DNA of 54,503 nucleotides, taken from the IMG/VR virus record IMGVR_UViG_3300031957_001318, positions 1-54,503 of that record. One strand, 5' to 3'. The notes below the pieces were generated by a model that saw only the letters and a program-made list of their open reading frames with translations, ran no database searches and was not told where the DNA came from. Each line of letters opens with the position of its first letter. Positions within the stretch are counted from its first letter, which is position 1. Positions 7,082 through 51,100 of this stretch are shown one piece after another. Both the position numbers and the translations under genes were made by a program. Origin of the DNA: a virus.

Positions 7082-7396
7082 ATGAGTGAGTACAAGGTTG
7101 GTGATCGTGTGCGACTTCGGCCACATGCTCGGTTTATGAATAATGACATATGTACTGTTTTTAGGGTTTACGATAATCCAAGATGGCCTTTAGATATCCT
7201 TTGTGATAATGGACGTTACACATTTTCTATTTCAAGCGACAACATCGAACCCTACACCGACCCCGAACCCACCACACCCGACCACATCACCCAACTGCGC
7301 GCCATGACCGAGGACGCGCTATCCAAGGGCGACTACAACCAAGCCGCTATCCTCGCAAACGCACTGGCGCAACTCACCCCCAAGCCCACCACCTGA
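7082..7396 (+). CDS. Hypothetical protein of plus-strand island in the tail region
   Basis: 104 residues. The N-terminal 55 residues read like a small beta-barrel (VGDRVRLRPHARF, then ICTVFRVYD), similar in style to SH3-like or KOW folds; a Pro/Thr linker leads to a short helical C-terminus with ALSKGDYNQAAILANALAQL. It runs against the surrounding late genes, has its own promoter and AGGAGG site, and its 3' end overlaps the convergent tail-terminator gene by 23 bases. Function unknown. Confidence 0.72.
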   Translation: MSEYKVGDRVRLRPHARFMNNDICTVFRVYDNPRWPLDILCDNGRYTFSISSDNIEPYTDPEPTTPDHITQLRAMTEDALSKGDYNQAAILANALAQLTPKPTT

Positions 7397-7802
7397 CTTC
7401 AACCGGCAACCGCATCATACCAATCGCGTCATCACGATACGCGGAACCTGCGACAAATGGGGTTTCGCGTATCTTCACGTTTAGGTCTGAATATGTCAGC
7501 CGCAAGTCTTTAGGAAAATGCGCGCGGATCAAGCCAACCACGCCCATGCGCTGCATATGCGTCCAAGTCATCGGCGTGAGGACTGACACCATGAATGTAC
7601 CACGATGAAAGTCTGGCGCGTCTGTTGTAACGTACTCGCGCGACGGATCAAACCGCACGTCATCCGTTAGCAAGAACGCGGTATTTGCAGGCGGGTCATA
7701 TGTCTCGCCCGGTTCGCTGATGTAGTAGCCGCCTGACATGGATGCGAGGCGGTCGCGTAGGGCGGCGTAGATTTTCGCGTCTAGGTTTGTGATTAGTGGC
7801 AT
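7374..7802 (-). CDS. Tail terminator-like protein
   Basis: 142 residues located between the HK97 gp10-like completion gene and the tail tube gene, the usual site of a tail terminator (lambda U, DUF4128 type). Sequence features fit: an N-terminal helix (ITNLDAKIYAALRDRLASM), a central beta segment (TFMVSVLTPM) and a C-terminal strand (RLPVEVRWWAWG). The product would cap the tail tube and join it to the head. Confidence 0.72.
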   Translation of the reverse strand: MPLITNLDAKIYAALRDRLASMSGGYYISEPGETYDPPANTAFLLTDDVRFDPSREYVTTDAPDFHRGTFMVSVLTPMTWTHMQRMGVVGLIRAHFPKDLRLTYSDLNVKIRETPFVAGSAYRDDAIGMMRLPVEVRWWAWG

Positions 7803-7820: not shown

Positions 7821-7849
7821 TTGACAGGCGAATTGTCATAGTGTAAGGA
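7821..7849 (+). promoter_or_regulatory. Promoter of the TTGACAGGC family (RNA ligase)
   Basis: TTGACA at 7821-7826 followed by GGCGAA, then a 17-base spacer to TAAGGA at 7844-7849. The AGGAGG and ATG of the RNA ligase follow. The TTGACAGGC(A/G)AA start is shared with sites at 13989 and 22511. Confidence 0.6.
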
Positions 7850-7873
7850 TAGCGTGTCAAATAGGAGGTTACT

Positions 7874-8770
7874 ATGACACAGTTTGTTAAGTACATGCAT
7901 CTTGAGCGTTTTGGCTCTGATGAAGTTGATGGCATTGAAGTGGGTAAAACTCTTGTGTTTCCGAAACTTGACGGCACCAATGCACAGGTTTGGCTGAATG
8001 AGGATGGCTCTATCGGATGCGGTTCGCGGAACCGTGTTCTGTCCGTTGATGCTGACAACGCCGGGTTTATGAATTGGGCGATTGATCAGCAGAATATCAA
8101 ACAGTACCTTACGTCGCATCCGAACCATACGCTTTACGGTGAATGGCTTGTCCCGCATAGTCTGAAAACGTACCGCGACGACGCTTGGCGTCGGTTCTAT
8201 GTGTTTGATGTTTTCGACCACGCGGACGGGCGGTTTATCCCGTATGACGATTACAAGGATGGCATCGAGCGGCATGGCCTTGACTTTGTAACGCCAATCG
8301 CCATCGTCAAAAACGGCAGCTTTGATAAGTACCTGCAATGCCTTGACCACAACACGTTTGCCATTAAGGACGGTGAAGGTATTGGCGAAGGTGTCGTTAT
8401 CAAGAACTACGACTTTGAAAACAAGTATGGCCGCGTCGTGTGGGCGAAGATCGTTACCACGGCATTCAAGGAAATGCACGTTGCGGCGATGGGCGCGGCT
8501 GAGATTGGCGGTCTTTGCGTCGAGGAAATCATTGTCAACGATTGCGTCACCAAGCATCTTGTCGATAAAACTCACGCCAAGATTGAAGCCCAAAATTTCG
8601 GCTGGAATAGCAAGATGATCCCGCAACTTCTCGGTATGGTCTGGCATGATCTTATCACCGAGGAAATTTGGGATATTCTGAAGAAACATAAGAACCCGCG
8701 TATTGACTTCCGTGCGTTGCAGCGGTTTTGCATTGCTAAGGTAAAAGAGCTAAGATCGGACTTGTTCTAA
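7874..8770 (+). CDS. RNA ligase (T4 Rnl2-like superfamily)
   Basis: 298 residues of the covalent nucleotidyltransferase superfamily. Motif I is KLDGTN with the adenylated lysine at residue 31. Motif III-like YVFDVF follows at about 117, motif IV is EGVVIKNYD at about 173, and motif V is WAKIV at about 191. A helical C-terminal domain completes it. Such enzymes join 3'-OH and 5'-phosphate RNA ends using ATP. The gene lies antisense among tail genes with its own promoter, and a tRNA-Asn gene begins seven bases after its stop, suggesting one transcript. A DNA ligase is less likely because no oligonucleotide-binding domain or zinc site follows. Confidence 0.9.
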   Translation: MTQFVKYMHLERFGSDEVDGIEVGKTLVFPKLDGTNAQVWLNEDGSIGCGSRNRVLSVDADNAGFMNWAIDQQNIKQYLTSHPNHTLYGEWLVPHSLKTYRDDAWRRFYVFDVFDHADGRFIPYDDYKDGIERHGLDFVTPIAIVKNGSFDKYLQCLDHNTFAIKDGEGIGEGVVIKNYDFENKYGRVVWAKIVTTAFKEMHVAAMGAAEIGGLCVEEIIVNDCVTKHLVDKTHAKIEAQNFGWNSKMIPQLLGMVWHDLITEEIWDILKKHKNPRIDFRALQRFCIAKVKELRSDLF

Positions 8771-8777
8771 TCTTACT

Positions 8778-8853
8778 TGCTGGGTAGCTCAGATGGTAGA
8801 GCGTCCGACTGTTAATCGGATGGTCGCGGGTTCGATCCCCGCCCCAGCAGCCA
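8778..8853 (+). tRNA. tRNA-Asn (anticodon GUU) with encoded CCA
   Basis: A cloverleaf of 76 bases. The acceptor stem is TGCTGGG with CCCAGCA, the D arm is AGCTC/GAGC, the anticodon stem TCCGA/TCGGA holds the loop CTGTTAA with anticodon GTT, and the T arm is GCGGG/CCCGC with TTCGATC. Discriminator G and CCA are encoded. It begins 7 bases after the RNA ligase stop, and the next minus-strand stop codon abuts its end. Confidence 0.97.
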
Positions 8854-9318
8854 TTACCTTCCCATAGCACTGTTAAACAATCTGGATGCGGCATTGCGCA
8901 TGATGCTGCGATAACGCGCGCCAACGCTTTCCACCCAAAATTTGCCGGGCTGGCTGTACAGCCTGCCGAGACTGTCCACCCCGTGGAAGCCATAATTCTG
9001 GCGCATCGCATAGTTGGCTTGATAAACCATTGTGCATTTATCGCCAAGCTTCAATGAACCTATAACATCAAGTGCGCGCTGGTCATTGTACACCGACCCA
9101 TAAGCGGCATTAGGTCCAGCGGGGATTACGCCATTCTTCCCAGCCGTGAGACTAGACCGCAGAAACCCCGTCAAAATAGGTGTTGCATCACGAAGCGCAA
9201 TGAAATAATCAAGCATCCCTAACTGAAACGCTTCCTCGCTTCGTTCCGTTGTTTCCTTTGTCCATTTTCGGACGGACTGTAAAAAACCGCGACTAGTGCC
9301 GAGGTTTCCACCCCTCAT
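8854..9318 (-). CDS. HK97 gp10-like head-tail / tail completion protein
   Basis: About 154 residues. The order of a basic N-terminus, a central helix (AFQLGMLDYFIALRDATPILTGFLRSS) and a C-terminal PGKFWVESVGARYRSIM fits the HK97 gp10 family that connects the tail to the portal adaptor. I use the ATG at 9318, which overlaps the previous stop as ATGA; an ATG at 9327 is possible. The stop abuts the tRNA-Asn gene. Confidence 0.75.
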   Translation of the reverse strand: MRGGNLGTSRGFLQSVRKWTKETTERSEEAFQLGMLDYFIALRDATPILTGFLRSSLTAGKNGVIPAGPNAAYGSVYNDQRALDVIGSLKLGDKCTMVYQANYAMRQNYGFHGVDSLGRLYSQPGKFWVESVGARYRSIMRNAASRLFNSAMGR

Positions 9319-10382
9319 CCGTACCATTCGCGCAACCCCTTCTTATCCAGCTTGTAATCCGCGCGGCACATACAATTGATAATCTGGTGAGGCCCGGCCC
9401 CCAATTCCGTATCATGGGGATACCTTAACGCTGCCCCATCCGGCATGATAAACGGCTCAGATAGACCCCTAACCTGTGTGCCGCTGATAAACATATGCTG
9501 TACACGGTCAATCATGGAACGTCCAGTGTGTCGCCATGTGCGGATTAGGAACTGCTCAGGAACGCCGGTCTTTTCTAGCCCTTGCCGCCACGCGTCAAAC
9601 TTGCCTTGTTCGATTGCACCAATGGTTTCCGTGCGAGCAATACGCAGACCGCGTACCATGAGTTGATTGTTCTCATACCGTCTAAGCAGCGCGTCAATCT
9701 GGGATTGCGTCAACGTCCGGCTTTCAGCGATGATGCGGCGGATGAATGCTAGGTCTCTTGGATTGAGTTTCATCCCCAGCGCGCGGGAAGGATCGGTTGA
9801 CAGGTATTCGCGAAGGTTGCGCACCCATTGCATCTGTTGCGGATCAAGCCCCACAACCCCGCCAGTGCGCCGCCCATTAGCGCCAATGCGCCCCACAAGG
9901 TCACGCGCGATACGGTCAAGTGGCCTGCCTAGAGCATACCCGTCAGCGATCACGTCACGCGCTACGGCTTGCGCTTCCGTTGACAGGCCAACCACCAGAC
10001 GCGCAGACAGGTTCCTAGCATACGTCTCAGCAAGCGGCGACAGGCTGTTATACCGCACCACTGCCCGCGTACCATCCGGGTAAATCCATGTGTTAGACTG
10101 GATGGTCAGCGAGCCGGATTGTGAGTACACTTCCAGAATGATGGCCTGTAAACGTGCATATGCAGCAGGGTCAATATTCAGCGCATTGACCGCCGCGTTA
10201 ATATCACCGGACCGCAGCGCATCCCTTAACTGGCCCATCTGCGCACGGTTGCGAATGTCCTGCATAGCGGTCAAGAACGCGTTACGGATGCGCGGTTCAT
10301 ACAGGCGCACGAGGTCCGCAATTTGCCGCTCATACATGGCGTCTTTTAGGTATTGACTGACTGGTGCGGGTGTGCTAGGCAT
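9315..10382 (-). CDS. Phage head morphogenesis protein (MuF-like)
   Basis: 355 residues. The N-terminal two thirds are helical; the C-terminal part holds the MuF-type pattern RIARTETIGAIEQGKFDAW, then TWRHTGRSMIDRVQHMF and HQIINCMCRADY, which includes the conserved RTE and the NCMCR cysteine motif. MuF proteins bind the portal and are packaged in small copy number. In this genome it lies away from the portal gene, among connector genes, which is less usual. Confidence 0.85.
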   Translation of the reverse strand: MPSTPAPVSQYLKDAMYERQIADLVRLYEPRIRNAFLTAMQDIRNRAQMGQLRDALRSGDINAAVNALNIDPAAYARLQAIILEVYSQSGSLTIQSNTWIYPDGTRAVVRYNSLSPLAETYARNLSARLVVGLSTEAQAVARDVIADGYALGRPLDRIARDLVGRIGANGRRTGGVVGLDPQQMQWVRNLREYLSTDPSRALGMKLNPRDLAFIRRIIAESRTLTQSQIDALLRRYENNQLMVRGLRIARTETIGAIEQGKFDAWRQGLEKTGVPEQFLIRTWRHTGRSMIDRVQHMFISGTQVRGLSEPFIMPDGAALRYPHDTELGAGPHQIINCMCRADYKLDKKGLREWYG

Positions 10383-10423
10383 GGTGAACGTATAGCACAG
10401 AAAGCGTGGAGGCGCAAAGAGGA

Positions 10424-10594
10424 ATGGATATTAGCGAGTTGATTAAGGAAATTCAATTAGCAATGGATCGCGTTGGTGTAGAGCGTGATCGTATTGATGA
10501 CATTATCAGCAACGCAGAACAATTGCGCGATAACTGCCAAACTGCATATGATGACCTCTGGCATGCGCGCGATGCATTGTCGGAACTAGTCTAA
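10424..10594 (+). CDS. Small helical protein of plus-strand island
   Basis: 56 residues, almost entirely charged helix (DISELIKEIQLAMDRVGVE, then NAEQLRDNCQTAYDDLW), likely a coiled coil. I chose the ATG at 10424, after GAGGA. It precedes a DUF551-like gene on the same strand with a gap of 28 bases, and both are antisense to the neighbouring late genes. Function unknown. Confidence 0.55.
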   Translation: MDISELIKEIQLAMDRVGVERDRIDDIISNAEQLRDNCQTAYDDLWHARDALSELV

Positions 10595-10622
10595 CCCAAC
10601 CAAACCGCCAAGGATGCAAAGA

Positions 10623-10922
10623 ATGACCAAATGGCAACCGATTGAAACAGCGCCGCATGGCAAAACATGCCTTATCTTCCTGAAAGATCAATACGGCCAT
10701 CAAAGAATTATCAAAGCAGAGTACTGCGATAAATTTTCTTGGGAAGCCTATTGTGAAAATTTCGAAGAAGAGTGGTGCGACTGGAATGAGGATGCAGGAT
10801 CGTATTACTACCCAGAAGGATGGTATGAAACATGCTGGTATCACAATGACATTTCAGGGATGAGAGTTACAGACACACCAACCCACTGGCAACCACTTCC
10901 CGAACCGCCTAGCGCACAATAA
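10623..10922 (+). CDS. DUF551-like protein
   Basis: 99 residues. It begins with KWQPIETAPHGKTCLIFL and ends with THWQPLPEPP, the two signatures of DUF551, a family of small proteins common on phages and prophages with no known biochemical role. The middle is very rich in Trp, Tyr and acidic residues. The ATG at 10623 fits the AAGGA site; an ATG at 10614 is possible. The 3' end overlaps the convergent connector gene by 14 bases. Confidence 0.78.
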   Translation: MTKWQPIETAPHGKTCLIFLKDQYGHQRIIKAEYCDKFSWEAYCENFEEEWCDWNEDAGSYYYPEGWYETCWYHNDISGMRVTDTPTHWQPLPEPPSAQ

Positions 10923-11259
10923 ACACCGAGGCCACCGGCTCCCCAGCCCCTTTATAATTAATGATCCGCACGACAGACACAACGTCACCGTCGATGCGGA
11001 TCATGTCGTTATTTTCCATATCGACCACGCCTTGGCATAGCACTTGCCTATCGCTGGCAAGCACCGTAGTGCCGTCAACGTATTTTTGCGACACGCCGCT
11101 AACCACCGCGTCAATCCGCGTCCATGTCGTCGTGACGGTCGGAGGGTCCCATTCGTTCGCGCCAGCAACCGTGGTCGACACCCCGATCTCGACAACGCCT
11201 TGATTGTACTTTTCCAGTAGCCGTCCAGCCGTGCCTCGCATACGGTCATAGAGTGGCAT
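10909..11259 (-). CDS. Head-tail joining protein
   Basis: 116 residues. The start MPLYDRMRGTAGRLLEKYNQ and the later beta-rich half (DGTTVLASDRQVLCQGV, MIRIDGDVVSVVRIINY) match head-tail joining proteins of the FII/gp9 style that follow the connector gene. I chose the ATG at 11259, seven bases after GGAG, rather than 11286. It lies between the DnaT-like connector and the MuF gene. Confidence 0.72.
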   Translation of the reverse strand: MPLYDRMRGTAGRLLEKYNQGVVEIGVSTTVAGANEWDPPTVTTTWTRIDAVVSGVSQKYVDGTTVLASDRQVLCQGVVDMENNDMIRIDGDVVSVVRIINYKGAGEPVASVFIVR

Positions 11260-11279
11260 AAAAAAATCTCCTAGGGGTG

Positions 11280-11310
11280 TTGACATGTGGTTTCGGGTGT
11301 GTCATATAGT
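11280..11310 (+). promoter_or_regulatory. Promoter of the 11.3-12.1 kb plus-strand island
   Basis: TTGACA at 11280-11285 and TATAGT at 11305-11310 (19-base spacing; CATATA at 11303 gives 17). It is followed by a leader of more than 250 bases before the main gene. Confidence 0.55.
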
Positions 11311-11356
11311 TTATCAGCTAAACGCAAGGAGACAAAACCAATAGCAACCGCTCACC

Positions 11357-11488
11357 ATGTGCGTCATCATGGTTTCGCAAAATGGAAGGTCGCCATACCT
11401 ACTGGCACAAGTCCGCAAGGGTAAAGTGTTAAGTGGTAAGTCTCAATTTGAGCAAGGTGATAGTTTCAATTGTGAAGAACGCAACTAA
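11357..11488 (+). CDS. Possible leader peptide
   Basis: A 43-codon ORF from ATG 11357 to TAA 11486-11488 in the leader of the 169-residue gene. It has no good ribosome site; the nearest AGGAG is 24 bases upstream. It is basic and polar with no signal or membrane segment. It may be a real small gene, a regulatory leader, or chance. Confidence 0.3.
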   Translation: MCVIMVSQNGRSPYLLAQVRKGKVLSGKSQFEQGDSFNCEERN

Positions 11489-11530
11489 AATCTAGGCAAG
11501 TTGTTCGCCGTTGCTGCATGGTCAATCCTA

Positions 11531-11559
11531 GCTTCCCTTGTCGGGTTAGCTTTATTTTT
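11531..11559 (+). promoter_or_regulatory. Hairpin with U-rich tail in leader (possible attenuator)
   Basis: GCTTCCC pairs with GGG-TTAGC around a short loop (with a bulge), followed by TTTATTTTT at 11551-11559. It lies just before the AGGAGG of the next gene, so it could act as a weak terminator that controls read-through. Confidence 0.4.
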
Positions 11560-11573
11560 ATCAGGAGGAAAGA

Positions 11574-12083
11574 ATGAAGATCGTAGAGGCTATGAAGAAA
11601 GTGAAAGACAATCGCCGCAAGATTGATGATCTTCGTCAGAAGATTGCCAAGAATGCTGCTCGTCTTTCTTACGAAACGTCTCAATATGATAATCCTGAGG
11701 CAAAGGTCAAGGAGTGGCTACAATCCTGCAATGATCTTTCAGTGCAATCCGTTGATCTTCTTGAACGTATCAATAAGACTAACATCAATACGATTGTTGA
11801 AATCGAGATTGGCGGCAAGTCTGTTTCTCGTTCCATTGCTGGCTGGATTTACCGCCGCCGTGAGTTTGCGGCGATTGATGCTGCAACTTGGAAAGCGTTG
11901 ACTGACAATGGCTTGAAAGATGGATTCGCAAAAACGGCATCAGGCGACCAGATGGAAGTTAAAGTCGTGCGTCACTTTAACCCTGAACAGCGAGACCGTA
12001 AGATTTCAGAGTTCTCAGAGGAACCATATTTGATTGATAGCCGACTAGAGGTCATCAACGCTATCACCGATCTCGCGGAATGA
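11574..12083 (+). CDS. Hypothetical helical protein of plus-strand island
   Basis: 169 residues with an excellent ribosome site (AGGAGGAAAGA then ATG). Residues 1-75 are a highly charged helix, probably a coiled coil (VKDNRRKIDDLRQKIAKNAA). The middle carries GGKSVSRSIAGWIYRRREF, and the C-terminal part is mixed. It has its own promoter and an intrinsic terminator directly after the stop, so it forms a single-gene unit antisense to the head-connector genes. I do not recognise the family. Confidence 0.78.
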   Translation: MKIVEAMKKVKDNRRKIDDLRQKIAKNAARLSYETSQYDNPEAKVKEWLQSCNDLSVQSVDLLERINKTNINTIVEIEIGGKSVSRSIAGWIYRRREFAAIDAATWKALTDNGLKDGFAKTASGDQMEVKVVRHFNPEQRDRKISEFSEEPYLIDSRLEVINAITDLAE

Positions 12084-12086
12084 TTT

Positions 12087-12108
12087 AGGCCCCATTGGGG
12101 GCCTTTTT
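12087..12108 (+). terminator. Rho-independent terminator
   Basis: GGCCCC-ATTG-GGGGCC stem followed by TTTTT, four bases after the stop of the 169-residue gene. It ends where the convergent connector gene's stop codon lies. Confidence 0.85.
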
Positions 12109-12635
12109 CACACCACCCGCGCATCAAACGAACGCACACCAGCAGTCCCGCGCACGAAACAGTCAATCCTGCGCATGGCAGCTTCAACACGGGTCTGCAT
12201 GGCCTCATACGATGCCGCATACCGGCTGGCATCATACCCCACTTGGATTTCCCCAACCTTCTCCATGGTGATTGCCGCATCTGCCAGACGGTACGAAGGC
12301 GACAGAACACCCGGCGCGCTAAGTTCTGCCCATGCCAAGTCATACTGAGCCGCGATAACCTCATCCGGGATTTCATCGTCGGCAATCGCGTTACCATCGC
12401 AATCTACCACGTCAGACCGAGGCCACGCACCAACCTGCGACCGGCCTAGTGTTCGTGCACCCTTCCACTTAAGCCCGTTCAGGTACGCAAACGCAGCCCG
12501 CATTGGTACATCCGAAGCGTCTTCATCTGCTACCGTACCGCCATAGTAATTCGCCACATGCAGAATGAAACCCGCTCGCGTTCCGTAGCTGTCTGCACCC
12601 GTAACGCCAGTGCCATTTTCAATTACCAACGCCAT
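12108..12635 (-). CDS. Head-tail connector protein (DnaT-like family)
   Basis: 175 residues. The N-terminus (MALVIENGTGVTGADSYGT) and the helical middle (AAFAYLNGLKWKGAR, then DEVIAAQYDLAWAEL) match the phage family often annotated as putative DnaT-like ssDNA-binding protein, which in siphoviruses occupies the head-tail connector position. Given its place between structural genes, a connector role is more likely than a DNA-binding role. Confidence 0.78.
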   Translation of the reverse strand: MALVIENGTGVTGADSYGTRAGFILHVANYYGGTVADEDASDVPMRAAFAYLNGLKWKGARTLGRSQVGAWPRSDVVDCDGNAIADDEIPDEVIAAQYDLAWAELSAPGVLSPSYRLADAAITMEKVGEIQVGYDASRYAASYEAMQTRVEAAMRRIDCFVRGTAGVRSFDARVV

Positions 12636-13187
12636 TTATGGTCTTTCCTCCCACCATGCCCGGAAAATGCCCGCATTAGGGCCGCTACCGGGGTTTGTTA
12701 AGACAAAATAGTATGTTCCTGCCGGAATGCCGCGCTCATCAGTCAGCCCATTTCCTACGCTCGCAATCTGTGCTGTTGCAGACGCAGCACGCCCAGCAAA
12801 AGCATCAAGAACCGTTCCGCCTGTATGTGTACCGCCCGCAGTAATTGCCACGACTGGTGAATATGCCGGTGCTACAGACATGGAATTGCGCGGGATAATC
12901 GGAAGTGTTTCAGAGAATGTGCCTCCCTCAGTCCCGCCAATCCGTGTTTCAACATCTGCCCAACCGTCAACCATTTCTAGACGTAAATCAAACAAGATTA
13001 CATCTACCGGAACTACAGCCTTGACAACTAGCGTCCCACCGTTAGCAATGGCAATCCGGCGAAACGTCCGAAACTCGCGCCCATCAAAGAAACCAGTCTG
13101 CCCAACATCAACGCGAATTCGGGCATTATCTCCGTCCGCATCGGTCATCAATTTCAGTGGCGGATAGTTACTGTTAAACCGCGTCAT
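12636..13187 (-). CDS. Structural protein, beta-rich
   Basis: 183 residues, beta-rich with many Gly, Thr and Val, and internal strands such as GGTLVVKAVVPVDVILFDLRL. It abuts the connector gene and overlaps the preceding gene by 4 bases, so it is part of the head/connector series. I do not recognise a family; a minor virion or head-fibre protein is a reasonable guess. Confidence 0.65.
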   Translation of the reverse strand: MTRFNSNYPPLKLMTDADGDNARIRVDVGQTGFFDGREFRTFRRIAIANGGTLVVKAVVPVDVILFDLRLEMVDGWADVETRIGGTEGGTFSETLPIIPRNSMSVAPAYSPVVAITAGGTHTGGTVLDAFAGRAASATAQIASVGNGLTDERGIPAGTYYFVLTNPGSGPNAGIFRAWWEERP

Positions 13188-13678
13188 CGGGCTTTGTGCG
13201 TCCTAGTGATAACATACCGCACGTCATAAAGGCTTGCAGTCCCGTTAGCGCGGCAATAGACCGTAGCGCCATTACCTTCCCATGTATCAAGCGTATAAAC
13301 GCCAGTGGAAATTACCATCGTTCTAATCTCGCCCTGACCTTTAGGGAACGTGATGGGTCGGCGATACAGTTCGCCAATAGATCCGCCAATATCAAACCAG
13401 AACTCAATATAAGTCGTGTTAGCGCTAGTCGGCACAACCTTGGCGTCAATGGTAATCAGCAGGGCATCTCCATTCTGACCCGTAATAACAGAACCATCAT
13501 AGAACGACGTAACATCAGCAGGAAGTTGACTTTCAATAACCGACCCTGCGTTATTGGCAACCAGCGTATCAGTGTCAGCCGCAATAAGCTGCGGCGATCC
13601 AGACGTGTATTGCGTATCGACGTAGTTTCCCCATCCCGTCCAAGATGCAGCCGCTACTGGAGAGACAAACCTAACCAT
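13184..13678 (-). CDS. Structural protein, jelly-roll-like
   Basis: 164 residues with alternating strands (SGSPQLIAADTDTLVANNAG, TTYIEFWFDIGGSIGELYRR, KGQGEIRTMVISTGVYTL). This pattern of a shallow jelly roll is found in virion decoration and tail accessory proteins. It shares a 4-base overlap with the next gene and a 1-base overlap with the gene before it. Specific role unknown. Confidence 0.62.
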   Translation of the reverse strand: MVRFVSPVAAASWTGWGNYVDTQYTSGSPQLIAADTDTLVANNAGSVIESQLPADVTSFYDGSVITGQNGDALLITIDAKVVPTSANTTYIEFWFDIGGSIGELYRRPITFPKGQGEIRTMVISTGVYTLDTWEGNGATVYCRANGTASLYDVRYVITRTHKAR

Positions 13679-13941
13679 TACGAACGAACCACGCCAACCG
13701 TAGTGGCCCCGTTAGGCGACAAGACATACACGTCAGCAGCAGGGCCTGAGAAGCTATATTCTCCGTCCCAGTGCTGATAGCTAGCATGAGCAGCACTAGC
13801 TGGGGCAGTGCCGCCAGTCGCAACGATGTAAATCCGCATACCACCCACAAGCGTTTCCGTGGCCGTGAGCGCCGTCACGTTATCGCCAATCTGCACATAA
13901 TCAGCCGCGCTAACCGCAACCCGTACCGTCTCAAGAGCCAT
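13678..13941 (-). CDS. Small structural protein
   Basis: 87 residues, beta-rich and without charged helices (VRVAVSAADYVQIGDNVTAL, GGMRIYIVATGG). Small proteins like this occur as decoration or fibre adaptor proteins next to capsid genes. It begins the connector-side group downstream of the kinase/sulfotransferase insert. No family recognised. Confidence 0.6.
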   Translation of the reverse strand: MALETVRVAVSAADYVQIGDNVTALTATETLVGGMRIYIVATGGTAPASAAHASYQHWDGEYSFSGPAADVYVLSPNGATTVGVVRS

Positions 13942-13988
13942 CTATATCGTCCTCTGTATAGTTTGCCTAGAGTGTAGCAAAAAAGGTG

Positions 13989-14017
13989 TTGACAGGCAAA
14001 GCGAGGGGGTGTAGTGG
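13989..14017 (+). promoter_or_regulatory. Promoter of the TTGACAGGC family (kinase)
   Basis: TTGACA at 13989-13994 followed by GGCAAA, a 17-base spacer and TAGTGG at 14012-14017. The GGAGG and ATG of the kinase follow at 14033-14047. Confidence 0.55.
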
Positions 14018-14044
14018 TGTGGGGTGCAGCAAATGGAGGCAGGT

Positions 14045-14431
14045 ATGGCTGACTTGTATATCATTCGCGGCGTTCCCGGCAGCGGAAAGACTACGCTTGC
14101 GGAAAAGATGAACGATAGCGGGATGATTGACGTCTATTTTGAGGCGGACATGATGATGATTGATCATGACGGCAACTACAAGTTTGACCCGTCTAAATTG
14201 TCTTTCTGCCATGACCAGTGTCAGCGCGCCGTTGATGTTGCCTTGACTGTCGGCCACAACGTTGCTGTCTCAAACACGTTCACGCGGAAATGGGAAATGA
14301 AGCCTTATTTTGATATGGCGAAAAAACACGGCGCGCAAGTTACGGTGATTGTTTGTCAGGGTGACTTTTCCAATGTGCATGGCGTCCCGAATGGGAAGGT
14401 TCAGGCGATGCGCGACAGGTTTGAATACTGA
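14045..14431 (+). CDS. Polynucleotide-kinase-like P-loop protein
   Basis: 128 residues. A Walker A motif GVPGSGKT lies at residues 9-16, followed by FEADMMMID at about 37, then HDQCQRAVDVALTVGHNVAVSNTFTRKWEM, the layout of the AAA_33 / T4 Pnk 5'-kinase and N4BP2-type kinases. The start at 14045 follows GGAGGCAGGT. It could phosphorylate RNA or DNA 5' ends and so prepare ends for the phage RNA ligase; a zeta-toxin-like or other small-molecule kinase is the alternative. It has its own promoter, and its last 31 bases overlap the convergent sulfotransferase gene. Confidence 0.82.
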   Translation: MADLYIIRGVPGSGKTTLAEKMNDSGMIDVYFEADMMMIDHDGNYKFDPSKLSFCHDQCQRAVDVALTVGHNVAVSNTFTRKWEMKPYFDMAKKHGAQVTVIVCQGDFSNVHGVPNGKVQAMRDRFEY

Positions 14432-14880
14432 CCGCACAACCTCCTAAAAACCCGGCTCTCCATTGCGTCCGCCTTGGTGATCCATTTCTTTGATGCGTTC
14501 TCGCGAGGCACCGGGTCAACATACCCGATACTTGCCAAAGCGTCAGAAATTCGCTCAATAGGATATACCTCAATCCCCGGCATATCCATAAACCATTCTT
14601 GTGGCTTGAATGCGGCCTGTTCCGTGCGGTACCGCAGGATATGGCGGCACACGCTATCGACGTCACCAGCCGGATAATAGTAATTAATCGCACTCACTAG
14701 CCGGTCAATAGGATCACGCACAACGGCAATGATACGGCTGGCAGTCATGGGATATGCAGACGCGCGAATGTGGCCTAGATGTGTCATGGGGCCTAGCGTG
14801 GATGCAGCCTTGACTAGGCTAGATGAGCCGGATTTAGGGATTTGTAGGAGGATGGTGTTTAGGTGCGGGATGTATGGCAT
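14401..14880 (-). CDS. Sulfotransferase family protein
   Basis: 159 residues. The PAPS-binding 5'-phosphosulfate loop is LLQIPKSGSSSL (residues 11-22) and the 3'-phosphate motif is VVRDPIDRLVSAINYYYP (about 53-70). Both are typical of cytosolic and carbohydrate sulfotransferases. At 159 residues it is shorter than most family members, but it has both cofactor motifs. It follows the major capsid gene after a strong terminator and so is probably separately expressed. A target on host surface glycan, lipid or a virion protein can only be guessed. Confidence 0.88.
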   Translation of the reverse strand: MPYIPHLNTILLQIPKSGSSSLVKAASTLGPMTHLGHIRASAYPMTASRIIAVVRDPIDRLVSAINYYYPAGDVDSVCRHILRYRTEQAAFKPQEWFMDMPGIEVYPIERISDALASIGYVDPVPRENASKKWITKADAMESRVFRRLCGQYSNLSRIA

Positions 14881-22510: not shown

Positions 22511-22539
22511 TTGACAGGCAAATCAGGGCGTGGTATCAA
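22511..22539 (+). promoter_or_regulatory. Promoter of the TTGACAGGC family (22.6-24.7 kb cluster)
   Basis: TTGACA at 22511-22516 followed by GGCAAA, a 17-base spacer and TATCAA at 22534-22539. It lies between the divergent portal gene and the first ORF of the plus-strand cluster. Confidence 0.62.
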
Positions 22540-22565: not shown

Positions 22566-22739
22566 ATGCAATACCACGTTAAACGTATCGACAGCATGTT
22601 TTCCAAGGTCATGTGGGGCGATTGCGACATGACGCGGGCGCTACTGATCCGCTTGTATGATGACCACGATACTGCTGGTATGGTGTTTCATCCTATTGCG
22701 CAAGAAATGTGTGACAAGGCTAATGGGGTGAAAACGTGA
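22566..22739 (+). CDS. Small hypothetical protein, first gene of plus-strand cluster
   Basis: 57 residues starting MQYHVKRIDSMFSKVMWGDC, followed by a polar helix. CAGGAG lies at proper distance before the ATG at 22566. Its TGA overlaps the GTG of the next ORF, starting a chain of ten coupled ORFs. No family recognised. Confidence 0.65.
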   Translation: MQYHVKRIDSMFSKVMWGDCDMTRALLIRLYDDHDTAGMVFHPIAQEMCDKANGVKT

Positions 22740-49742: not shown

Positions 49743-50840
49743 TCAACCCCTCCTAATCGGCTCAATAGCCTGCATAATCAACCCGTCTTTATCGCAGAAC
49801 GTCAACGACTGCAAAGCGCGCCTAGACGAGAACCCGGACCCGTATTCATCGGCAGGGCAGAACGCGCGCAAAGACCACCACTTAACGCCGGGGAAGTCCT
49901 TGATGCTGTCGTGGTGAATGTGCCCTGTGAGCAAGTGCCTATCACGCGCCATAGACCATTCAGGGCAAGTGTCTGCAAGGTGCATGGCTAGGCGTTGCGC
50001 TGGGTGACGGTCGCCATGATGCGATGCCACAAGTGCCACGCCATGCCTAATCCAATATGTATCCCGTTGCGCATCCTCAATCGTTACCATTGGTGCAAGA
50101 CGATACCTAGCGGCAAGGGCAAAGTGTAGGATCAAATGCGAGTGTTGATCGTGATTCCCTCGCTGGACCCTAACCGTAACCTTTGAATGCCGCTCTGCCA
50201 GCCCGTCGATCACATTGCAGATCGCATGAATGGCAACCTCAGATACCTTGTACAACCGTCCGTCAGTATCCACCACATGCTTGCGGGATTGCGTGTGCCC
50301 CTCGTTATCGTCGGCGTGCAACGTATCCCCGCCAAGGATCAGCACGGCATGGTCGCTCGCTGGAGTGCGAGACCATAGACGATCAAACGCCGTGATAAGG
50401 TCAGTGCGCGCTAGGTCTAGGTCATAATCCTGTCCGCCCGTTTCACGCCCCCACGCCTTCATGCCGAAATGCGCATCCATCAGCGGGTATACAGTGAGCA
50501 GCCCATCACCAACCGGCTTGATAGGATTAGGCCGATACGTTGGCACGTTCTGGAATGCGTCACGGATGGTTTCTAGATGATCCTCTGTGGCGGTTTCCGG
50601 CACGTCAAACACATAGTAGGTCGAGCGATCATCCTGTTTAACCCACATGGCCCTAGGAGTACCCGCCGCGCCATCTGACTGTGCGGCTTGCTTGGCGATT
50701 GGGTCCGCGTCAACCCATCGCCGCGCACGCTCCCAGCGGCTACGGGCAGACCTGTAAGAAATACCAAGACGGCTTGCAACTTGCCTTAGCGTTAGGCCGG
50801 ATTGTTTCAGGTCGTAGACTTGTTTTTGTTCTGGCGTCAC
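49743..50840 (-). CDS. Metallophosphoesterase with N-terminal helix-turn-helix
   Basis: 365 residues, GTG start at 50840 overlapping the upstream stop. An N-terminal sigma/resolvase-type HTH (GLTLRQVASRLGISYRSARS) at about 15-40 is joined to a calcineurin-like phosphoesterase with PLMDAHFGMK, LILGGDTLHADD, VQRGNHDQHSH, VALVASHHGDRH and HLLTGHIHHDS. It could be a DNA-end nuclease or phosphatase with a DNA-binding module; Mre11-like function is not shown. Confidence 0.88.
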   Translation of the reverse strand: MTPEQKQVYDLKQSGLTLRQVASRLGISYRSARSRWERARRWVDADPIAKQAAQSDGAAGTPRAMWVKQDDRSTYYVFDVPETATEDHLETIRDAFQNVPTYRPNPIKPVGDGLLTVYPLMDAHFGMKAWGRETGGQDYDLDLARTDLITAFDRLWSRTPASDHAVLILGGDTLHADDNEGHTQSRKHVVDTDGRLYKVSEVAIHAICNVIDGLAERHSKVTVRVQRGNHDQHSHLILHFALAARYRLAPMVTIEDAQRDTYWIRHGVALVASHHGDRHPAQRLAMHLADTCPEWSMARDRHLLTGHIHHDSIKDFPGVKWWSLRAFCPADEYGSGFSSRRALQSLTFCDKDGLIMQAIEPIRRG

Positions 50841-51100
50841 CAGATATCCTCCGAATATAGGTCTCGCTGGCAGGTTGTTCCATTTGGAATTTGCCCAGCA
50901 ACCCAAGCAATTTGCATGGCCTGCACACGGTTTACAAATCGGCCCTTGCTTGTCAGAAATCCTTGACAAACGTAATGAATTGCACCTTTTGGCAAGAATT
51001 GCTCAGCGCAGCGCAAAACCTGCCCATGACGGGCAGGCTTCGGTAGACTAATGGTAACACCATCGTATTGAATGGCGGCGGCGGTGATACGTTCGGTCAT
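50837..51100 (-). CDS. Hypothetical phage protein
   Basis: 87 residues, mixed, beginning with TERITAAAIQYDGVTISLPK and containing GAIHYVCQGFLTSKGRFVNR and QAMQIAWVAGQI, a pattern found in conserved small phage proteins. Coupled to the phosphoesterase and to the gene upstream by 4-base overlaps. No function known. Confidence 0.75.
   Translation of the reverse strand: MTERITAAAIQYDGVTISLPKPARHGQVLRCAEQFLPKGAIHYVCQGFLTSKGRFVNRVQAMQIAWVAGQIPNGTTCQRDLYSEDIW

Follow-up and report, generated by a model that had tools for sequence, protein, structure and literature searches.

An exchangeable RNA ligase–tRNA cassette between phage virion genes, with a possible role against host tRNA cleavage

In the sequence analysed here, a stand-alone IMG/VR virus record 54,503 bp long (IMGVR_UViG_3300031957_001318; hereafter the window), a gene for an Rnl2-type RNA ligase is followed after exactly 7 bp by a gene for tRNA-Asn(GUU), the two lying antisense between two virion genes. 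Relatives of the window also carry an RNA ligase with a tRNA directly behind it, and both halves of this cassette are exchanged among them. This recurring adjacency with both members exchanged is the main new result; the counter-cleavage role itself has already been proposed elsewhere. With moderate confidence we favour reading the cassette as a swappable ligase–tRNA moron that would counter host tRNA cleavage, for which we infer both the chemistry and the target.

Results

The ligase open reading frame (ORF) holds KLDGTN and EGVVIKNYD, and the residues of nucleotidyltransferase motifs I, III, IIIa, IV and V (K31-D33-G34, E90, F111, E172 and K192) are invariant in 25 relatives. A single-sequence search of the PDB with the ligase found no relative. 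Foldseek comparison of its AlphaFold2 model (predicted local distance difference test (pLDDT) 88, predicted template modelling score (pTM) 0.66) places the T4 Rnl2 entries 2hvr, 2hvq and 1s68 at the top (E 4e-12 to 3e-9), with Rnl1 (5tt6) at 6e-8. Profile, motifs and predicted fold identify the protein as an Rnl2-type RNA ligase, one that is probably active as an enzyme. The initial annotation had described an Rnl2-like ligase followed by tRNA-Asn(GUU) after seven bases, and the sequence, ARAGORN, Rfam, PF09414/phrog_548 and the T4 Rnl2 fold agree on this. To our knowledge there is no agreed in vivo substrate for T4 Rnl2, and so belonging to its family does not by itself amount to tRNA repair. 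The stop of the convergent neck gene comes directly after the tRNA (Table 1). Across the lineage the cassette tRNAs score 59–72 bits in Rfam and look complete, with an encoded CCA end.

A tRNA lies directly behind the RNA ligase of the virion block in all five lineage genomes that have one (the window, L053, L159, L189 and L254), and the relatives carry tRNAs other than Asn. L053 (capsid 84%, Rnl2 ligase 62%) has the same site, the same 7 bp spacer and a tRNA-CAU abutting the neck stop; the same case appears again as L077/L157. At this site L159 and L189 carry RtcB, then tRNA-Pro(UGG) after 53 and 68 bp, and in L254 RtcB (77%) and tRNA-Pro stand 7 bp apart at another slot, flanked by a head gene and the capsid gene. 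The RtcB of L159 (PF01139, 4.6e-61) has a fold unrelated to Rnl2, and the catalytic Cys/His motifs GVGFDIACGN (Y for F in L189), GSGNH, VHNHHNFAW and STVHGAGR are present in all three RtcB proteins. The spacer is thus 7 bp in three of the five units, and in each of the four units at the neck slot 0–2 bp separate the end of the tRNA from the neck stop.

Thirty-five distinct lineage contigs span the neck junction: 4 with a ligase, each of them also with the tRNA, and 31 with neither. Counting the window, the comparison is 5/5 against 0/31, which gives p=2.7e-6 in a count test that ignores shared descent. Because contigs of one lineage depend on each other, it is fairer to count three combinations: Rnl2 with tRNA-Asn (window), Rnl2 with tRNA-CAU, and RtcB with tRNA-Pro, which occupies two different sites. 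The involvement of two ligases that share no homology, and of three kinds of tRNA, speaks against a single accident passed on by descent. Because relatives keep the unit with a different tRNA or an unrelated RNA ligase, the pattern suggests that ligase and tRNA work together. The cassettes are insertions, since the genes bordering them abut or overlap in insert-free relatives (L187, L190, L193 and most others).

The window tRNA-Asn and the L053 tRNA-CAU are 63% identical, and pairs with different anticodons average 58% (standard deviation 6), so that 63% does not decide whether the two are orthologues with switched identity. The tRNA-Pro of L159, L189 and L254 has A37, shared with L074; L112 and L154 have G37. 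The usual residue in bacterial tRNA-Pro is G37.

The promoter-like box of the ligase–tRNA island is an exact match to TTGACAGGCRAA, which has three exact sites in the window, all on the plus strand (Table 1), against a mean of 0.04 under dinucleotide shuffling and three sites in 0 of 100 shuffles. A shared box for ligase and kinase, as the initial annotation had it, is borne out by these sites. Since the pattern was derived from two of them, only the third counts as independent. All three lie upstream of a plus-strand ORF, by 53, 56 and 55 bp (55 for the third); when two mismatches are permitted there is no excess in the window. More broadly, TTGAC[A/T] occurs 53–77 bp upstream of the first ORF in six of six plus-strand islands examined, with about 0.05 expected per 60 bp. 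A sigma-70 scan of the window does not pick up the boxes because their -10 match is poor; their repeated placement suggests that they act as promoters. In the ligase–tRNA island the TTGAC[A/T] box is present, the -10 is weak and no clear terminator follows the tRNA.

The initial annotation had also placed a Pnk-type P-loop protein about 5 kb off on the same strand, and profile and fold both link the 128-residue protein found there to the Pnk group. It sits 5.2 kb from the ligase in a separate antisense island; its best start is ATG 14045, with GTG 14024 an earlier in-frame alternative. A profile built from 23 relatives matches T4 Pnk (1ly1, 3.7e-5) and the Clostridium Pnkp kinase (4gp7, 1e-5), the PHROG comparison adds a weaker similarity to the phage polynucleotide kinase family, and the predicted structure (pLDDT 92) matches L-seryl-tRNA(Sec) kinase best, along with T4 Pnk and Pnkp. 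Within the P-loop GVPGSGKTT, G12, G14 and K15 are invariant, as is the general-base D35. The acceptor and lid residues R38, D85 and R126 are essential in T4 Pnk; in the alignment of this small family the D85 position is Asn, and no residue clearly corresponds to R38 or R126. A motif WEMKPY...HGV also resembles N4BP2 kinases, and some phage records bear the label N4BP2. Profile and predicted fold place the protein with the polynucleotide kinases among the P-loop kinases, a label of kinship and not of substrate, which the fold does not fix because its best match is L-seryl-tRNA(Sec) kinase.

In distant phages this kinase and the RNA ligase belong together by linkage. Among 50 ligase-bearing records a kinase scores over the cut-off in 4, each time within ~1.5 kb of the ligase and once ~12 bp behind it; conversely, of 39 records with a kinase relative, 20 encode an RNA ligase as well, in most scored cases no more than 6 kb away. 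The linkage p-values are rough: they take positions within a record as random and use midpoints calculated by hand, with several near-duplicate records omitted. The two genes overlap by 4 bp in Pseudomonas phage Pyxpy02, where the same strand also carries a phosphoesterase gene close by, and the gene order in MW202692 is nucleotidyltransferase–ligase–kinase. The phrog_2071 kinases of Pyxpy02 and Aeromonas phages share family (~40–43% identity) and partner type with the window kinase; there, however, kinase and ligase are adjacent on one strand, whereas in the window they are antisense islands. No second genome with both is found in the window's own lineage. L002 has a kinase (63%) antisense among virion genes in a record that is a 7.7 kb fragment, and the absence of a kinase from L159, L189 and L254 is uninformative because those records are short. 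We infer a place for the kinase in the repair set, and regard it as a weaker part than ligase and tRNA.

One further gene of the window, at 49743-50969 (-), encodes a protein with a helix-turn-helix (HTH) and a metallophosphoesterase-like domain (phrog_704, labelled DNA repair exonuclease in PHROGs). A homologue lies 268 bp behind an Rnl2 ligase in L075. We regard this protein as a candidate only for a 3'-end healing enzyme.

Minus-strand virion genes (terminase, portal, capsid (phrog_29), head morphogenesis, neck and tail) fill the first half of the window, and short plus-strand islands, among them the ligase–tRNA unit and the kinase, sit between them. The initial annotation had counted these parts as members of a late operon; they instead stand on the opposite strand, between the head, neck and tail genes. 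In L254 (4150-5900) the RtcB–tRNA-Pro unit occupies the slot that holds the kinase in the window, after an almost identical TTGACAGGCAAAGC box, the box that precedes the window kinase. This gives the impression that islands swap slots together with their promoters. At the neck slot, L155 (769-1434), L264 (6444-7139) and L188 (2066-2746) have endonuclease genes that look GIY-YIG-like or HNH-like on visual inspection. Another antisense island of the window carries a gene with DUF6847 (11574-12083, +; E 1.1e-7), followed at ~12089-12110 by a terminator-like stem, GGCCCC...GGGGCC TTTTT. Among the virion genes, the product of 14401-14880 (-) is small and sulfotransferase-like (Sulfotransfer_2, a sub-threshold hit at E 0.0026); in L053 its homologue (61%) sits elsewhere in the operon. 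No GenBank phage is a near DNA match to the window's first 25 kb.

Table 1 Features of the ligase–tRNA and kinase islands in the window
Feature	Position	Strand	Basis
Virion gene bordering the cassette	7374..7802	-	Synteny; abuts or overlaps the neck gene in insert-free relatives
Promoter-like box TTGACAGGCGAA of the ligase–tRNA island	7821..7832	+	Exact TTGACAGGCRAA match, 53 bp before the ligase ATG
Ligase ribosome-binding site AGGAGG	7863..7868	+	Read from sequence
Rnl2-type RNA ligase, 298 aa	7874..8770	+	Pfam PF09414 (RNA_ligase) 3e-21; phrog_548 1.1e-44; motifs; fold
tRNA-Asn(GUU), CCA encoded	8778..8853	+	ARAGORN; Rfam RF00005 71.9 bits
Neck/tail-completion gene bordering the cassette	8854..9327	-	phrog_169 6.9e-9; sequence; stop codon starts immediately behind the tRNA
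Promoter-like box TTGACAGGCAAA of the kinase island	13989..14000	+	Exact TTGACAGGCRAA match
Small Pnk-type P-loop kinase, 128 aa, no phosphatase domain	14045..14431	+	AAA_33 1.1e-12; phrog_2071 1e-31; profile; fold
Third TTGACAGGCAAA box	22511..22522	+	55 bp before the plus-strand ORF at 22566

Discussion

In the mechanism we propose, ligase and tRNA would be transcribed as one unit, antisense between the two virion genes. As only 7 bp separate them, host RNase P would free the tRNA from the ligase transcript, and the ligase would be translated. An infecting phage would supply both an RNA ligase and one tRNA, and host tRNA cleavage may be countered from two sides, the tRNA refilling the attacked species and the ligase resealing cut copies, so that translation continues. 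The lineage would retain this pairing while swapping Rnl2 for RtcB and Asn for CAU or Pro.

Rnl2 seals 5'-phosphate to 3'-hydroxyl ends and RtcB joins 5'-hydroxyl ends to 3'-phosphate or 2',3'-cyclic phosphate (PMC7824862); because the two need different ends, each cassette may suit a different host nuclease. The separate Pnk-type kinase of the window could provide the 5'-phosphate that Rnl2 requires, and cyclic-phosphate ends would additionally require a 3'-phosphatase. RtcB needs no kinase and Rnl2 may need one; the window has a kinase and L053 does not, a pattern that fits different nucleases but is no test of them. A more specific version, which we hold only tentatively and think rather doubtful, is a modular anti-tRNase cassette in which each tRNA is paired with the sealing chemistry that matches the break made by one host nuclease. 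If this were true, joint exchange of ligase family and tRNA would re-match the phage to another nuclease, and the cassette would show which tRNA is attacked by the host, and in what way.

Several observations weigh against a counter-cleavage role. The anticodon loop of the tRNA-Asn, CTGTTAA, is ordinary, identical to that of two other phage tRNA-Asn genes compared, and no escape- or resistance-type change is evident in it. No 3'-phosphatase is linked to the cassette, and L053, a near-complete relative with ligase and tRNA, has no kinase. The clearly distinct combinations number only three, with common ancestry of the locus and one origin for the RtcB–tRNA-Pro cases. Outside the lineage, a tRNA lies within 100 bp of a same-family ligase in 0 of ~77 viral and 39 genome loci; adjacency as a general trait of the ligase family was rejected on its absence from these ~116 loci. 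The slots of the virion block are rich in exchangeable cargo, including homing-endonuclease-like genes in the same neck slot. Prophage relatives gave no lead to a host: the minor head protein has no relative in genome contigs and those of the ligase there belong to many different phyla, so we propose none. Finally, proline codon usage fits codon supply, CCA standing at 1.32% in the tRNA-Pro(UGG) phages against 0.63% and 0.44%, in few genes.

The proline figures lead to the strongest competing account, which we judge distinctly less probable and still worth serious weight: the tRNA simply boosts translation of phage codons; the ligase next to it is unrelated, acts on other RNA, such as nicked mRNA or rRNA, and shares only slot and promoter with it. 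That CCA is the commoner Pro codon in the tRNA-Pro(UGG) phages speaks for it, as do the abundance of phage tRNAs generally and the lack of an adjacent tRNA at most same-family ligases. Asparagine, however, has one isoacceptor, and its codons make up 3.99% in the window against 3.36% and 3.73% in relatives without tRNA-Asn. The absence of a tRNA from the 31 ligase-free contigs, the recurrence of the pairing with a non-homologous ligase and the move of both genes as a pair in L254 also sit badly with plain supply. ATA codons are nearly absent from the virion genes of the window (0.08%), compared with 0.5–0.6% in L053, L159 and L189.

Chance cargo is improbable, in our estimate: hot slots might take any promoter-borne gene, and ligase and tRNA would have met once or twice by accident and been kept by drift. 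The GIY-YIG-like, HNH-like and unknown genes in these slots, and the similar islands occupied by the kinase and other genes, are what such traffic would leave. Three ligase–tRNA combinations with two unrelated ligases and tight spacing are harder to obtain in this way, and the ligase frames stay open with intact motifs at 62–79% identity.

We give very little credence to the idea that the tRNA serves the ligase mRNA, with an RNase P cut that trims or stabilises the transcript and blocks antisense read-through into the virion genes, so that tRNA identity would be nearly irrelevant. The position directly behind the ligase, the variable identity and the want of a clear terminator after the tRNA are in its favour; the other plus-strand islands of the block do without a tRNA, and the cassette tRNAs have the completeness, encoded CCA and Rfam scores given above. 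Tyrosine and serine integrases (PF00589, PF00239) are absent from the window, L053 and L046 records, which nearly refutes tRNA-dependent lysogeny, that is, integration into a host tRNA gene whose loss the phage tRNA makes good (PMC10865867), even if it agrees superficially with a phage whose one tRNA gene varies in isotype.

The favoured counter-cleavage moron has several known counterparts. T4 repairs tRNA-Lys cut by PrrC with Rnl1 and the bifunctional kinase/3'-phosphatase Pnk. The window resembles it in having a phage RNA ligase, a Pnk-type kinase and a tRNA as probable object, but its ligase is Rnl2-like and shares a unit with a tRNA gene, and its kinase is a kinase domain only, in a separate island. 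The initial annotation's T4-like repair set does not hold up: the ligase is not of the Rnl1 type, the kinase lacks the 3'-phosphatase and several T4 Pnk residues, and L053 has no kinase at all. Membership of the T4-type Pnk/Rnl1 system was rejected, there being no Rnl1-type ligase and no fusion of the 128-residue kinase to a HAD 3'-phosphatase. Co-occurrence in related phages stands for ligase and tRNA, and for ligase and kinase as neighbours in related phages, and fails for the kinase in L053. The initial annotation's suggestion that the tRNA-Asn could replace the cleaved tRNA, or be repaired as that tRNA, may hold for the window; relatives have other tRNAs in this position.

Phage RNA repair or tRNAs have been established or proposed as answers to tRNA cleavage in T4, jumbo phages (PMC7824862), Lacusarx (PMC5648845), Rhodococcus CB phages (PMC13313380) and the Cluster K1 mycobacteriophages (PMC3203893). 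The K1 phages carry one tRNA-Trp and RtcB, for which the authors proposed protection from host tRNA cleavage (PMC3203893). They match the window in size (~60 kb), in having one tRNA and one RNA ligase, and in proposed role, but in their genomes the tRNA gene is located close to the left end and rtcB belongs to the right-hand operon, whereas the window pair is adjacent and antisense and the ligase family varies. Jumbo phages combine Rnl1, Rnl2, RtcB, Pnk, phosphoesterases and tRNAs (PMC7824862), and Lacusarx has rtcB within a 24-tRNA region (PMC5648845); enzyme families and proposed role are the same, but these are large genomes with many scattered parts, and the lineage of the window has a two-gene exchangeable cassette. 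As in phage morons, the cassette is an extra set of genes between virion genes, with its own promoter-like box and absent from relatives; it differs in being antisense to the virion operon and in the missing clear terminator. A search of the open literature, with subscription papers outside it, found no account of an adjacent ligase–tRNA unit whose two members are both exchanged within a lineage.

It has long been asked why phages carry single tRNA genes. The paired exchange turns the view that phage tRNAs counter tRNA-cutting defences into predictions about specific tRNAs (Asn, CAU and Pro) and end chemistries (Rnl2 versus RtcB), and the cassette is a compact unit that can be tested by expression in laboratory strains. 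The genomic signature of an RNA ligase, a short spacer and a tRNA could guide the search for unknown host tRNases.

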